Positions 16,228-21,512 of a stretch of 21,888 nucleotides of DNA are shown in pieces. The stretch is from a virus: the IMG/VR virus record IMGVR_UViG_3300032288_001148, positions 1 to 21,888 of that record; one strand, written 5' to 3'. The notes under the pieces are model-generated. The model searched no databases. It saw nothing but the letters and a program-made list of their open reading frames with translations, and had not been told where the DNA came from. Every line of letters starts with the position of its first letter. Within the stretch, counting starts at the first letter, position 1. The translations under genes were made by a program, and so were the position numbers.

Positions 16228-16524
16228 TCAAACGGGATTTTCTGACATGCTTTTTCCGGCAGTCGATGGGGTTGAGGTCTTGGTTCGGGATTTTTCGACA
16301 TGCTTAATTTCCCCGGGCAAAAACGCTGCATGTAGCGCAGGGGCGAGGGCTTCGATGGTGCGCAGAACGTCGAGAAGGCGAAGGGTTGCCGCCGATGGGG
16401 AGCGTTCCCCATTGGCCCATTTGCGAAACGTGAAGACAGGCACGCCCAGGTAGTCAGCGGCCTGATGTTCGTCGAGGTCTAGGCGAGCCATGAGGGCGGC
16501 AAAAGGGTTCGAGGGTGTGGTCAT
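16228..16524 (-). CDS. XRE/YdaS-like helix-turn-helix regulator
   Basis: This 98-residue protein has a clear HTH: LDLDEHQAADYLGVPVFTFR as helices 1-3, then KWANGERSPSAATLRLLDVL, the typical W-NGxRxP ending of XRE-type domains. A 30-residue polar, basic tail follows. Start ATG at 16524 has TGGAGAA upstream; the open frame extending far upstream crosses a terminator and neighbouring genes and is rejected. A complete terminator sits 17 nt before the start codon, so the gene is reached only by readthrough. It may regulate the early region, including the palindromes near 17500 and 18400 (inference). Confidence 0.7.
   Translation of the reverse strand: MTTPSNPFAALMARLDLDEHQAADYLGVPVFTFRKWANGERSPSAATLRLLDVLRTIEALAPALHAAFLPGEIKHVEKSRTKTSTPSTAGKSMSENPV
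16233..16305. repeat. Direct repeat, two 20-bp copies 53 bp apart
   Basis: CGGGATTTTCTGACATGCTT (16233-16252) and CGGGATTTTTCGACATGCTT (16286-16305) match at 18 of 20 positions. They lie in the 3' end of the HTH gene. The period of 53 is not a multiple of three, so the copies are read in different frames and cannot be kept for protein reasons. Both contain an ATG on the minus strand. It may be a small duplication or a pair of binding sites. Confidence 0.6.
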
Positions 16525-16541
16525 GGGTTCTCCAGGGTCAG

Positions 16542-16567
16542 AAAAACCCGCCAGGATCGCTGGCGGG
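16542..16567 (-). terminator. Rho-independent terminator inside the accessory cluster
   Basis: On the minus strand CCCGCCAG (16567-16560), a 5-nt loop and CTGGCGGG (16554-16547) form a perfect 8-bp stem followed by TTTTT (16546-16542). It stands between the 24-residue TM peptide gene and the HTH gene. Only 17 nt separate its U-tract from the HTH start codon, too few for a new promoter. Confidence 0.85.
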
Positions 16568-16586
16568 TCGGGTTGAGGGGTTAGGG

Positions 16587-16661
16587 TCAGAGGTCGAGGA
16601 GATCGATGATCAGAGGGACCACAAGGGCCCCGATCAGGGCTGCGATGAGGGAGGCGATCAT
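16587..16661 (-). CDS. Hydrophobic microprotein, 24 residues, single TM segment
   Basis: ATG at 16661 overlaps the stop of the gene upstream (ATGA), and the frame ends TGA at 16589-16587. The peptide MIASLIAALIGALVVPLIID plus four more residues (LLDL) is a single membrane-spanning helix with acidic C-terminal residues. Composition and coupling support it. It resembles the 30-residue peptide two genes upstream and the 22-residue peptide at 4692-4760 in form, not in detailed sequence. Function unknown; small phage TM peptides can act as membrane modulators or exclusion factors, but nothing here shows that. Confidence 0.5.
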   Translation of the reverse strand: MIASLIAALIGALVVPLIIDLLDL

Positions 16662-16936
16662 TCGAGGGCGCCCTTTCTAACTTTCTCGATGGCGGCGGCG
16701 CGGCTACTGGCCCGCACGTAAGTGCAGCACGGCCAGCCGTCAATCCAACCCCAGACTCCCCAGACATTCGAGGGGGTGCCCCAGTAGGCCCCGCCCTTGT
16801 CATAACCGTCCCCGCCGCCCTGATGGCGGGCGTGAAGGCGGCGCATACCTTCGAGGTTCGCGGGATTGTCGCCAGTGCGCCCCATAGGCGAGCCGTAGCG
16901 GCTGGACACTTCGGGGAAAGGGTTGAACTGTTTCAT
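16658..16936 (-). CDS. Hypothetical phage protein, Gly/Trp-rich
   Basis: This 92-residue protein has an unusual composition: seven tryptophans, many glycines, and the phrase GGAYWGTPSNVWGVWGWIDG. That is followed by CCTYVRASSRAAAIEKVRKG, where the last part is a helix. I recall the GGAYWGTPSNVW phrase from proteobacterial phage and plasmid proteins of unknown role. ATG at 16936 overlaps the previous stop (ATGA) and has GAGGAG upstream. Its own stop overlaps the TM peptide gene. Confidence 0.72.
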   Translation of the reverse strand: MKQFNPFPEVSSRYGSPMGRTGDNPANLEGMRRLHARHQGGGDGYDKGGAYWGTPSNVWGVWGWIDGWPCCTYVRASSRAAAIEKVRKGALE

Positions 16937-17287: not shown

Positions 17288-17461
17288 TCAAATGTCTTGA
17301 TACTGAGCGCGAATGGCTTCTGCTTGTTCCTTGGTCTGACCAAAATATTGATGACCAGACTTGCCCTCCGCGCACCAATCATTGATGCCGTATTCGATCT
17401 GGCGCTCGATGTTGAGATCAGAGAAGGATGGGTTGCAGACTTCGTAGGCTTGGTGGTTCAT
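17288..17461 (-). CDS. Small acidic hypothetical protein, 57 residues
   Basis: ATG at 17461 follows GTAAGGACTGACATC, with AAGGA as ribosome binding site, and the frame ends TGA at 17290-17288. The product (MNHQAYEVCNPSF, then IERQIEYGINDWCAEGKSGH, then FGQTKEQAEAIRAQYQDI) has a protein-like mix with no known motif. It is the first gene after the TTGACA promoter at 17501-17529. The Shine-Dalgarno of the next gene overlaps its stop codon. Confidence 0.65.
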   Translation of the reverse strand: MNHQAYEVCNPSFSDLNIERQIEYGINDWCAEGKSGHQYFGQTKEQAEAIRAQYQDI

Positions 17462-17500
17462 GATGTCAGTCCTTACAGGTTACGGGTTACAAGGAAACAC

Positions 17501-17529
17501 AGTGTCACCCATTGGGTTTGCATTGTCAA
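17501..17529 (-). promoter_or_regulatory. TTGACA promoter with an 11-bp palindrome filling the spacer
   Basis: On the minus strand TTGACA (17529-17524) is a perfect -35. GACACT (17506-17501) is a weak -10 (three of six) at the ideal 17-bp spacing. The last 11 bases of the spacer are the perfect palindrome ACCCAATGGGT (17517-17507). A protein bound there would block polymerase directly. The -35 overlaps the stop codon of the AP2-like gene. It should drive the genes from 17461 leftward. Confidence 0.65.
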
Positions 17530-17550
17530 GCACTTTTTGACCCAATGGGG
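17507..17550. repeat. Two ACCCAWTGGGT palindromes (operator-like) left of the AP2-like gene
   Basis: The copies are ACCCATTGGGT at 17507-17517 and ACCCAATGGGG at 17540-17550, with centres 33 bp apart. The first is in the promoter spacer. The second encodes the last residues (YPIGS) of the AP2-like protein. They are of the same type as the array at 18369-18668 on the other side of that gene. Confidence 0.7.
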
Positions 17551-18155
17551 TAGACCCCTAGACGATAGGCGAAAACGGCAGCATCGCGTTCTTCAGCCGT
17601 GGCGAAGTAGCCCAGGTGCAGCACTCGCGCACCGTCTCGGACTTGCGCCTTGTAACGCGGGGGCTTTGCTGGACGCGGCGCACGGTGCACCATCTCACCC
17701 GTTTTCAGGTAGTGCGCGACAACCCCAGCGCGGTAGGTGCGCCCATCGAAGCGCACCCGATCCCCGCACGGGGTCAACTTCTCCACGTCCCGCGTAAATC
17801 GCGTCTTGTCACGTCGCACCACCTCGACACGGGCCACGGTGCGCCGCATCAACTGAGCGTCAATCAGCGCGAAGGCTTCGCCAATCGTGCGAGGGGTTCG
17901 CACTTGAGGCTTCGCGGGCTTTTTGCTTTCCCGCACTTTCGGCGGGGAAGGATTCGCGGGTTCAGGTTTGACCACTCGCACGGGCTCAGACTCACCGAGA
18001 AGATGGAGCAGTTGCGAATCGGTCAAGCGTTCGAGTTGTTCGGCGTCCGCATCTTCGTCAGTCTCAAGCACTCGGGAGACTAGGCGCAGGTGCGCCAGTT
18101 GTTCGGGTGTCAATCCGACTAGCTCAGCGTCATCATAGAAACGAATCATTGGCAT
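17526..18155 (-). CDS. AP2-like DNA-binding protein, probably derived from an HNH-AP2 endonuclease
   Basis: This 209-residue protein has an acidic helical N-terminal third (YDDAELVGLTPEQLAHLRLV and further helices), a Pro/Lys-rich linker (60-90), and a C-terminal part with two recognisable blocks. Residues 133-156 (RVRFDGRTYRAGVVAHYLKT plus GEMV) match the segment that precedes the HNH core in phage HNH-AP2 proteins. Residues 167-200 (RYKAQVRDGARVLHLGYFAT and on) match the AP2 DNA-binding domain. The DHINxxxxDN catalytic stretch expected between them is missing. It therefore probably binds DNA without cutting it. ATG at 18155 has AAAGGA upstream; the longer frame to 18272 crosses a strong promoter and is rejected. 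Palindromes on both sides make it a candidate regulator of that array. Confidence 0.65.
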   Translation of the reverse strand: MPMIRFYDDAELVGLTPEQLAHLRLVSRVLETDEDADAEQLERLTDSQLLHLLGESEPVRVVKPEPANPSPPKVRESKKPAKPQVRTPRTIGEAFALIDAQLMRRTVARVEVVRRDKTRFTRDVEKLTPCGDRVRFDGRTYRAGVVAHYLKTGEMVHRAPRPAKPPRYKAQVRDGARVLHLGYFATAEERDAAVFAYRLGVYPIGSKSA

Positions 18156-18192
18156 GGTGTGTTCCTTTCTTCGGTGTATCCATGTATCCGGC

Positions 18193-18221
18193 ATCTTAGC
18201 GCGTTGGTGACAAGATGTCAA
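18193..18221 (-). promoter_or_regulatory. Strong sigma-70-type promoter for the AP2-like gene
   Basis: TTGACA (18221-18216), a spacer of exactly 17 bp, and TAAGAT (18198-18193) give six of six and four of six matches. The -35 is overlapped by TGACAAGATGTCA (18208-18220), a perfect 5-bp inverted repeat around 3 bp. It is the best promoter in the window and should be active at once after injection. Confidence 0.75.
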
Positions 18222-18246
18222 GGATTGAGGGATACGAGTTTGAAGG

Positions 18247-18287
18247 ATTCCCGGGAATAAGTGCTGTTTCAAAATCGTATTGAAACA
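18247..18287. repeat. Two perfect palindromic sites upstream of the strong promoter
   Basis: ATTCCCGGGAAT (18247-18258) is a perfect 12-bp palindrome. TGTTTCAA (18265-18272) and TTGAAACA (18280-18287) form a perfect 8-bp inverted repeat around 7 bp. Both lie 26-66 bp upstream of the -35 of the AP2-like gene promoter, a usual place for operator or activator sites. Confidence 0.6.
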
Positions 18288-18368
18288 AGGGGTCGCGGGC
18301 GCGCGAAAGGCAAACCTGTCGTTCGTTCACCATTTTGCCGGATACACGGATACAAACCAAGGGAAATG

Positions 18369-18668
18369 CCCCATTGGGTCAGTTATTCAATACCCCAATG
18401 GGTCCATTGTTCCCATAGTCCAGTAATTCCCCCAAATGGTCCAGGAACCCCGGACCCATTGGGTTTAAGCCAGTTTTCAGAGTATCGGGGAGATACTCGG
18501 ACCCAATGGGTTACAGATACTGGGCTGTGAGTATTCGCCGGGATACTCGGACCCACTGGGGTCGCCGGGGTCTGGGGGAGGGGGAGGGCCGGCTGGTTTG
18601 AGGGTCCGGCCACGTAGGCATCACGAACCCCGTGAAAATTTTTTTCAAAAAGTAGAAACCCAGTGGGT
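18369..18668. repeat. Array of ACCCAWTGGGT palindromes with composite repeat units
   Basis: Six clear copies are at 18369-18379, 18393-18403, 18454-18464, 18501-18511, 18551-18561 and 18658-18668. A degenerate one is at 18430-18440. The centre bases vary (TT, AA, CT, GT) while the CCCA/TGGG arms are kept. At 18480-18511 and 18529-18561 the palindrome is joined to an inverted repeat (GAGTAT with ATACTC), giving two tandem units about 50 bp apart, each ending GATACTCGGACCCA-n-TGGG. Two more palindromes lie at 17507-17550. Confidence 0.75.
18567..18588 (+). other. G-quadruplex-forming motif
   Basis: Four G-tracts of 4, 5, 5 and 3 bases are separated by loops TCT, A and A. Loops this short are expected to give a very stable parallel quadruplex. 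A GGCCGG...CCGGCC hairpin (18587-18611) adjoins it. The motif lies on the plus strand between the palindrome array and the terminase genes. Confidence 0.6.
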
Positions 18669-18700
18669 CACTTCCCCCTACTTCCTACAATTCCAGCCAT

Positions 18701-18710
18701 GTGCTACGAT
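18701..18710 (+). promoter_or_regulatory. Possible extended -10 promoter for the terminase genes
   Basis: GTGCTACGAT contains TG-C-TACGAT, an extended -10 with four of six matches; no good -35 is present. The start point would fall only a few bases before the ATG at 18721. With no Shine-Dalgarno visible, the terminase message could be nearly leaderless. Confidence 0.3.
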
Positions 18711-18720
18711 CCTTAACACT

Positions 18721-19284
18721 ATGGAACAAGCATTCGCTCCATCCGTAGGCACGGTTGTCACCGGTGAAAGTGCACTCCCAAACTGGCTGTCGTGCCCGGA
18801 CCCGCCAACACCTCGCCCCACGAAGGCTGCGAGAGAGTTGCTGCACATCGAATACGAGCAGATATTCGAACGGGTGATCGAGGACATCTATCGGGGTCGA
18901 TCCCTGCAGTCGCTCATCGAGGGTGATCCGAGGGTCATCTCGTATGAGGACTTCTTGCGCTGGGTCAAGCGTGACCCGCAGCGCCATGAGCGGTTCAAGG
19001 AAGCGCAGGAGATGCGCACGGAGTTCTTGGCCGGGGAGATCCTTGAGATTGCCGATGGCGTCGAATCGGTTGACCCCACCTCGAACGACACGGTGAACCG
19101 GGACAAGTTGCGCATCGACACGCGCAAGTGGCTCATGGGAGCGCACAACAAGAAGCGCTACGGTGAGACCAAGCAGATTGAACTCGGTGGCACGATCTCG
19201 ATCACTGAAGCGCTGGCGCAGGCCCAGGCCCGGGTGATCGAGGGTGAGGTCATCGACGTAACCCCTCGACTGGAGAACAACTGA
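18721..19284 (+). CDS. terS: Terminase small subunit
   Basis: This 187-residue protein has the pattern of phage small terminases: a helical N-terminal region with an HTH-like segment (IYRGRSLQSLIEGDPRVISY, then EDFLRWVKRDPQRHERFKEA), then EFLAGEILEIADGVES, RDKLRIDTRKWLMGAHNKKR and YGETKQIELGG, the usual core and oligomerisation part. It recognises the packaging site and loads the large subunit. ATG at 18721 starts the conserved part without a clear ribosome binding site; an upstream extension in frame (to about 18598) runs over the repeats and is unlikely. The stop overlaps the large subunit start (TGATG). Confidence 0.82.
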   Translation: MEQAFAPSVGTVVTGESALPNWLSCPDPPTPRPTKAARELLHIEYEQIFERVIEDIYRGRSLQSLIEGDPRVISYEDFLRWVKRDPQRHERFKEAQEMRTEFLAGEILEIADGVESVDPTSNDTVNRDKLRIDTRKWLMGAHNKKRYGETKQIELGGTISITEALAQAQARVIEGEVIDVTPRLENN

Positions 19285-20825: not shown

Positions 20826-21082
20826 TGGCCAAAAAGTCCGTGTCTTTGAGCGTTGGTCGGGGCGAGAAGCTGCCGGTGAGCCAAGGCGCGGGTCTGACGG
20901 CCAAAGGGCGCGAGAAGTACAACCGCGAGACAGGCTCCAACCTTAAGGCGCCAGCCCCCAACCCCAAAACCGAGGCTGACAAAGCACGGAAAAAGTCTTT
21001 CTGTAGTAGAATGGCTCCTATCGCAGAAAAATCGGAGCCAGGAAGCCGTGCAAGAGCCGCAATGCAGCGTTGGAAGTGTTGA
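20825..21082 (+). CDS. Small basic phage protein (DUF6321-like)
   Basis: This 85-residue basic protein contains GAGLTAKGREKYNRETGSNL, then KAPAPNPKTEADKARKKSFC, SRM and the ending RARAAMQRWKC. These blocks are typical of a small family next to phage terminase genes (DUF6321-like, from memory); no function is known. The ATG at 20825 shares a base with the terminase stop. The stretch between SRM and RWKC is shorter than I remember for the family, and its DNA contains the hairpin and start of the homing endonuclease gene, with which it overlaps by 35 bp. Confidence 0.72.
   Translation: MAKKSVSLSVGRGEKLPVSQGAGLTAKGREKYNRETGSNLKAPAPNPKTEADKARKKSFCSRMAPIAEKSEPGSRARAAMQRWKC
21012..21045 (+). promoter_or_regulatory. 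Hairpin next to the homing-endonuclease ribosome binding site
   Basis: TGGCTCC (21012-21018) and GGAGCCA (21034-21040) pair perfectly around a 15-nt loop. The last stem base is the first base of AGGAAG (21040-21045), the Shine-Dalgarno of the GTG at 21048. A promoter-like TAGAAT (21007-21012) precedes it, without a good -35. Folding could limit ribosome access. Confidence 0.45.
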
Positions 21083-21512
21083 AGTGTGGGCCGACGTCCA
21101 AGGCTATGAAGGCCGGTATCAAATAAGCACGCTTGGCCGCGTCAAGTCTTTGGCCCGCGTGCGGCGCGGTAAAGCAGGTGCGGATGTGCCGATGCCGGAA
21201 CGCATCATGCGCCTGACACTTAAAAAAGACACCGGGCGTACAAAACCATACGCTGAGGTGCGTTTTCGTAACGGCGGCCTTCGCACAGAACGCTGCAAAT
21301 CTTTTTTGGTGCACCGTTTGGTGGCCAACGCTTTTATCAAGCCTCTTGAGGCCAACGAGCAGGTTGATCACATCAACGGCCACCACAACGACAACCGCGT
21401 CGAAAATCTGCGCGTCATGAAGACCGTAGAACACGCTAGACTTCACCCACTGCTGCATGCGCCGGACGCCCGCGACCCAAAAACTGGCGCGTTTTGGTCA
21501 AAAGGACGCTGA
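21048..21512 (+). CDS. Free-standing HNH homing endonuclease (NUMOD4-HNH)
   Basis: This 154-residue protein has a NUMOD4 motif at residues 11-35 (VEVWADVQGYEGRYQISTLG, then RVKSL) and an HNH nuclease: VHRLVANAF (H89), QVDHINGHHNDNRVENL (D107, H108, N110, N116, N120) and a closing H129. It would cut a specific site in endonuclease-free relatives and spread its own gene. It lies between small basic protein genes after the terminase and overlaps the upstream gene without destroying it. GTG at 21048 follows AGGAAG at short spacing. The gene has more A/T-rich codons (AAA, TTT) than its neighbours, fitting later arrival. Confidence 0.88.
   Translation: MQEPQCSVGSVEVWADVQGYEGRYQISTLGRVKSLARVRRGKAGADVPMPERIMRLTLKKDTGRTKPYAEVRFRNGGLRTERCKSFLVHRLVANAFIKPLEANEQVDHINGHHNDNRVENLRVMKTVEHARLHPLLHAPDARDPKTGAFWSKGR

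Follow-up and report, generated by a model that had tools for sequence, protein, structure and literature searches.

A probable homing-endonuclease remnant acting as a DNA-binding autoregulator beside the terminase genes of a podovirus-like phage lineage

We analysed a 21,888-bp virus sequence (the window, meaning the whole stretch of DNA at its full length), which carries on its minus strand a gene for a protein of 209 residues, here called P0001. In our judgement P0001 is probably the remnant of a homing endonuclease that has become a sequence-specific DNA-binding (auto)regulator, which would repress its own transcription through tandem octamers. The family to which it belongs, previously unnamed, comprises 18 non-redundant members in IMG/VR, all from a single podovirus-like lineage related to Phage DSL-LC05, for which the family 'Luchaoviridae' has been proposed (PMC10611076). 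The window genome is podovirus-like, and its TerL shares 88% identity with the TerL of Phage DSL-LC05 (OR003940) and 37-38% with those of epsilon15 and phiV10. Members were identified by scanning IMG/VR with the P0001 protein, with a DNA pattern for the palindrome pair, with the TerL of the window and of L116, and with alignments; they are the window, L002, L013, L020, L027, L038, L051, L081, L092, L106, L107, L114, L115, L116, L117, L118, L130 and L141. Relatives are 25-42% identical to P0001, and all 18 members occupy one slot just upstream of terS and divergent from it. No relatives of P0001 were detected among named phages or among bacterial and archaeal genomes (GTDB).

The gene runs from an ATG at 18155 to a TGA at 17526-17528 without internal stops, flanked by leftward genes and a rightward terS-terL pair, and its GC content (0.605) equals that of the window (0.601). 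The coding sequence is divided as follows.

17526-18155, minus strand: coding sequence of P0001, HNH-less AP2 protein of 209 aa, with 17 non-redundant relatives at the same place
17976-18155, minus strand: residues 1-60, acidic helical N-terminus (predicted helices 9-52)
17688-17759, minus strand: residues 133-156, beta hairpin and helix, the part found ahead of the core in HNH proteins
17658-17687, minus strand: residues 157-166, proline-rich link replacing the HNH core and AP2 strand 1
17562-17657, minus strand: residues 167-198, AP2 remnant of strands 2 and 3 plus helix, with covarying columns 167, 169 and 171

An earlier note, made from the DNA alone, had described P0001 in much these terms, and most of its description stands. 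Residues 1-60 hold 14 D/E against 5 K/R, with helices predicted at 9-52, in agreement with the acidic helical N-terminus proposed there; most relatives have a counterpart of this region and L038 does not. The segment at 133-156, which begins VRFDGRTYRAGVVAHYLKTGEMV, does match the pre-core segment of HNH proteins, a homology established through P0002, the protein of L002 (E 1.2e-16 and 4e-16). At the position of the core stands the short link that had been noticed, HRAPRPAKPP, with proline at four of ten residues. The HNH core (DH..N...DNR..NL) is absent from P0001 and 16 relatives, that is, from 17 of the 18 members; L002 keeps a degenerate one. For the AP2 domain, claimed at 167-200, the outcome is mixed: residues 167-198 (RYKAQVRDGARVLHLGYFATAEERDAAVFAYR) retain strands 2 and 3 and the helix, at 168-198, with a profile E of 7e-9, and strand 1 is missing.

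No Pfam family, AP2 included, was matched by P0001, and nothing reached threshold in sequence searches of Pfam, PHROGs and the PDB; the sole PHROGs signal is a weak HNH match at 166-197 (E 0.008). In the AlphaFold2 model (mean pLDDT 83, pTM 0.39) residues 9-52 are helical, 89-129 form a beta region, 133-152 a hairpin and a helix, and 168-198 two strands and a helix. At the C-terminus the predicted elements are strands 168-174 and 177-184 and helix 187-198, not the full three-stranded AP2 sheet. The outcome that the earlier note named as refuting it, the want of such a sheet, is thus half the case: strand 1 is gone, and strands 2-3 and the helix remain. A fold search with the full-length model produced no significant match, and HNH endonucleases were frequent in the viral fold list, none at E <= 0.001. 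When residues 125-209 were modelled alone (pLDDT 84), plant AP2 domains (WRINKLED1, TEM1, AtERF1) made up six of the first eight PDB neighbours, at E 0.6 or worse.

Descent of the P0001 family from an HNH-AP2 endonuclease is supported by profile comparison. The profile-profile alignment called for by the earlier note, of 17 HNH-less relatives against seven intact HNH-AP2 proteins, joined the AP2 end only (probability 95.8, E 7e-9). Against the HNH-less family P0002 aligns at E 1.2e-16, the gap falling at its own HNH core; against the intact HNH-AP2 proteins it aligns at E 4e-16, the gap here falling at AP2 strand 1; and it matches Pfam HNH_3 at E 1.5e-8. Because it aligns with both groups, P0002 is an intermediate in architecture, if not necessarily in descent. 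Its core reads RHLNGDRGDNRIANL in place of the intact DH..N...NNR..NL. In two further phages the slot upstream of terS is taken by a protein with a degenerate HNH core (IKHRNGEVVDCREANL in L041, VKHKDGDVGNNRADNL in L046) and a different, non-AP2 C-terminus.

L041, 3476-3997: degenerate-HNH protein with its own upstream motif TTAGTGAGCACTGACTAA
L046, 4401-4901: degenerate-HNH protein with its own upstream motif TTAGTGAGCACTGACTAA

In the three degenerate cores (IRHLNGDRGDNR, IKHRNGEVVDCR, VKHKDGDVGNNR) the His is kept and the Asp that is invariant in the seven intact HNH-AP2 proteins is replaced, by Arg in L002 and by Lys in L041 and L046. That Asp is a metal ligand in HNH enzymes of the I-HmuI type, and the three cores are therefore probably inactive.

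Transcription of the gene would start from a strong promoter, as the earlier note had recognised, followed immediately by a candidate operator.

18193-18221, minus strand: sigma-70 promoter of the AP2 gene, TTGACA-17-TAAGAT
18175-18189, minus strand: proximal tandem-octamer candidate operator GGATACATGGATACA, directly after the -10 box
18340-18354, plus strand: distal inverted operator copy GGATACACGGATACA

The promoter is the only sigma-70 match within 17300-18800. Across the family the tandem octamer follows the consensus GNNAACAT GNNAACA, with an inverted copy about 150-250 bp upstream, and its sequence differs among phages: GGGAACATGGGAACA in L051 and L081; GCTAACATGCTAACA in L092, L115, L116 and L013; GTCAACATGTCAACA in L020; GGCAACATGGCAACA in L114; and GGTAACATGNNAACA in L106, L107, L130 and L141. 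The search pattern G..[AT]A[CG]A[CT]G..[AT]A[CG]A occurs in 15 of 18 carriers, 14 of them at -26 to -40, against six of 119 non-carriers (149 kb). Each inverted upstream copy resembles the proximal site of its own phage, with 13.5 of 15 positions matching on average, whereas motifs taken from other phages reach 10.9 and shuffled motifs 9.1; the match to the phage's own proximal site is the best in 16/16 cases, in the inverted orientation only. Since the motif was spotted by eye in the carriers' upstream regions and later tested on the same carriers, so that its definition was unblinded, it is the comparisons with non-carriers and of own with other motifs that carry weight. Octamers are recognisable only as variants in L027 and L118 and not at all in L038, which has repeats of its own (AGAACCAAC). 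An operator lying over the gene's own promoter, the arrangement of an I-TevI- or CapR-like repressor, is thus seen in 15 of the 18 carriers, as judged from sequence.

The octamer also varies together with the DNA-facing surface of the AP2 remnant. With 16-17 carriers, about 150 protein columns were ranked against shuffles by the mutual information that they share with the bases of the octamer. For bases 1-3 the top two columns are 171 and 169, in that order, the covariation being modest and kinship handled only by ranking against other columns; among 148 columns, positions 167, 169 and 171 of the DNA-facing strand covary best with the variable bases. Taken singly, base 2 points to columns 167, 169, 183 and 168 and base 3 to 171, a selection that the second octamer does not repeat. 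Overlap of the first octamer with the -10 hexamer (TAACAT), seen in several phages, puts constraints on bases 3-8. Columns 167, 169 and 171 lie on AP2 strand 2, where they share one face with the conserved R173, and 183 lies on strand 3. Aligned to AtERF1, residue 171 corresponds to E160, 169 to A158 and 173 to R162; in structures of AtERF1/ERF96 it is R162 that touches the DNA (PMC7593309), and position 158 tells the DREB from the ERF groups (PMC3644242). Where residue 171 is Arg, the octamer has GGG (L051, L027, L081); Ala is paired with GCT or GTC, Val with GGT or GGC, and Gln, in the window only, with GGA. Residue and octamer switch jointly in two sister pairs, L027 (R, GGG) with L107 (V, GGT) and L081 (R, GGG) with L106 (V, GGT), and L130, a carrier found later, has Val at 171 and GGT, as expected from a rule written beforehand from the earlier carriers. 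The covariation, from 16-17 sequences, speaks for sequence-specific binding by way of the strand surface, as in AP2/ERF domains.

We propose that a freestanding gene for an HNH-AP2 endonuclease of the homing type established itself upstream of terS in these phages, lost its HNH core and AP2 strand 1, and has been kept as a sequence-specific DNA-binding regulator whose AP2 remnant (strands 2-3 plus helix) would read an 8-bp word. Tandem words (GGATACATGGATACA) directly after the -10 box of its own promoter, with the inverted copy about 165 bp upstream, would allow bound P0001 to block its own transcription and so confine its expression to an early pulse. For a nuclease-free AP2 unit expressed from a strong promoter of its own, with a candidate operator where transcription starts, autorepression is the simplest reading, and the inverted copy further upstream hints that the two sites cooperate, probably by looping. 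The sequences establish the ancestry of the gene, its synteny, purifying selection on it, where the operator lies, the tie between operator and gene presence, and operator covariation with the DNA-facing strand. Binding by P0001, repression as its sign, looping and any effect on late genes are what we infer from these arrangements; P0001 might instead be an activator, or act on terS. A point against this reading is the loss of AP2 strand 1, with which plant AP2 domains touch DNA. Lacking an HNH core, P0001 is not expected to cleave DNA.

The gene does behave in part as a mobile element, and it might accordingly be a homing endonuclease in decay, selfish and functionless. A FastTree TerL tree of 127 phages requires 13 changes (gains or losses) to account for the very patchy presence of the gene, at least nine of them forced by well-supported branches. 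Empty sites in relatives, a mark of mobile genes, are found by sequence in presence/absence pairs: L130 has 504 bp where L015 has 5 bp, and L106 has 541 bp where L068 has 24 bp, the boundaries being read by eye from BLAST pieces and the MAFFT alignment being poor for one pair. The extra piece, again by eye, starts immediately after the -35 box and ends at a palindrome, which together with its flank encodes the C-terminal tail (PIG, NPAGREST, THGVREST). Phages of this lineage also carry intact HNH-AP2 genes next to terL: in L061 the gene is placed between it and terS, and in L172 immediately ahead of it. Yet dN/dS for the pairs of AP2-family genes compared is 0.17-0.36, so that these genes are not in decay, reading frames are intact in all members found, the AP2 end is conserved, and the gene has its own promoter and a covarying operator; we regard functionless decay as very unlikely. 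Just as unlikely is a nuclease-free packaging accessory that marks the packaging site near terS in the manner of the HK97 HNH protein. That protein, encoded upstream of the terminase, takes part in cos cleavage (PMC10448857), and the position next to terS is fixed in every member of our family; but the HNH core is gone, most relatives package without an AP2 gene, and the octamers lie at the gene's own promoter and not at a site common to all phages.

A different role was suggested by the palindromes on both sides of the gene, which are real: the window holds eight copies of CCCANTGGG against 0.49 expected, all at 17508-18667.

17507-17517: palindrome ACCCATTGGGT
17540-17550: palindrome within the 3' end of the gene, encoding -PIG- of the C-terminal tail
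18369-18668: six further palindromes (18369, 18393, 18454, 18501, 18551, 18658), an array common to gene-less relatives
17501-17529, minus strand: promoter-like site of the leftward genes, TTGACA-17-GACACT, with the -10 box matching only 3/6 here and stronger in relatives

The earlier note had tied these palindromes to P0001, which might bind the 11-bp ACCCANTGGGT and so regulate the leftward and terminase promoters. They flank the gene in most carriers, one lies in its 3' end, and another, the distal one, fills the 17-bp spacer of the leftward promoter-like site, whose -35 box overlaps the stop codon of the gene. However, arrays of ACCCANTGGGT upstream of terS are widespread among DSL-LC05 relatives (L007-L017, L019, L020, L022, L102): at least three palindromes are found there in 55 of 114 gene-less relatives, DSL-LC05 among them, with a mean of 3.4 against 0.02 in shuffles, and the carriers L117, L118 and L038 have none. 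Because about half of the gene-less relatives have the array and three carriers do not, the palindromes were rejected as P0001 operators, and we hold it highly improbable that they serve as such; the array is a trait of the phage lineage, not of the AP2 gene. They look older than the AP2 gene and like operators of another regulator, as the palindrome inside the leftward spacer also suggests. A better candidate binder than P0001 is the XRE-type protein at 16228-16803 of the window, which occurs in carriers and non-carriers alike and is annotated as 'repressor protein C' in DSL-LC05. The proposed change from homing endonuclease to DNA-binding regulator thus survives by way of HNH-AP2 descent (L002, L041, L046) and operator covariation, and without the palindromes as its sites. 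Conversely, the octamers could be bound by some other carrier-specific or host protein while the AP2 protein does something else. The link between P0001 and the octamers does rest on sequence, and two of the six non-carriers with the pattern, L177 and L183, have real-looking tandem octamers (GACTACATGACTACA) upstream of terS/terL with no AP2-family gene detected; against this, the octamer bases follow the DNA-facing AP2 strand above almost all other columns and the site is located on the AP2 gene's promoter, and we consider another binder unlikely. A hypothetical CDS in DSL-LC05 (OR003940 33492-33857; L102 3713-4078) crosses the palindrome array and is probably spurious.

Autoregulation by a former endonuclease would not be without parallel. 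HNH-AP2 homing endonucleases (IPA-HNH HEGs, PMC10448857; HNH_3 and AP2 in Pfam) share with P0001 the pre-core segment, AP2 strands 2-3 and helix, a terminase-adjacent gene, and a gene-sized insertion with empty sites; P0001 differs in the loss of the HNH core and AP2 strand 1, an added acidic helical and beta N-terminus, and its own tandem operator. I-TevI is a transcriptional autorepressor (Edgell 2004; reviewed in PMC2988022) and, like the arrangement predicted for P0001, combines a homing-endonuclease DNA-binding domain with an operator overlapping its own promoter, but it keeps its GIY-YIG nuclease and moonlights, whereas that of P0001 is gone. CapR, the repressor of PLE satellites, derives from the DNA-binding domain of T5orf172 HEGs (PMC10448857); it is an endonuclease-derived domain as P0001 appears to be, though a zinc finger borne by a satellite against its helper, in contrast to a phage-borne AP2 unit from an HNH enzyme. 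Plant AP2/ERF factors have been proposed to originate from HNH-AP2 endonucleases (PMC10448857), with loss of the nuclease and reuse of the AP2 strand surface, and AtERF1 158 and P0001 169 are homologous specificity positions. The plant domains, with three strands, bind as monomers to a GC-rich site of 11 bp, whereas P0001 has two strands and less GC-rich tandem octamers.

The route from endonuclease to repressor therefore already has precedents in CapR and the plant AP2 factors (PMC10448857). Of the closest precedents, I-TevI keeps its nuclease and CapR uses another domain; the plant lineage, whose proposed origin that of P0001 parallels, comes without intermediate steps at hand. Among these phages, forms with an intact HNH core, with a degenerate one and with none are found at a single locus or next to it, together with covarying candidate operators. 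The step from endonuclease to regulator, and the rules by which a minimal AP2 unit of two strands recognises bases, thereby become directly testable with small proteins and short DNAs. More tentatively, the conversion may have been caught in many stages and its specificity may be diversifying, each phage pairing an octamer with a matching AP2-strand residue, maybe as immunity-like specificity groups; if so, the AP2 protein of a resident phage would act only on incoming phages that share its octamer word.

Two other features of the region were observed. An intact NUMOD4-HNH endonuclease gene lies downstream of terL at 21048-21512 of the window, on the plus strand. A strongly conserved block before terS, at about 18612-18650 of the window (ACGTAGGCATCAC..AACCCGTGAAAATTTTTTTCAAAAA) and also in L033, L046 and L102, is a possible packaging or late-promoter element.
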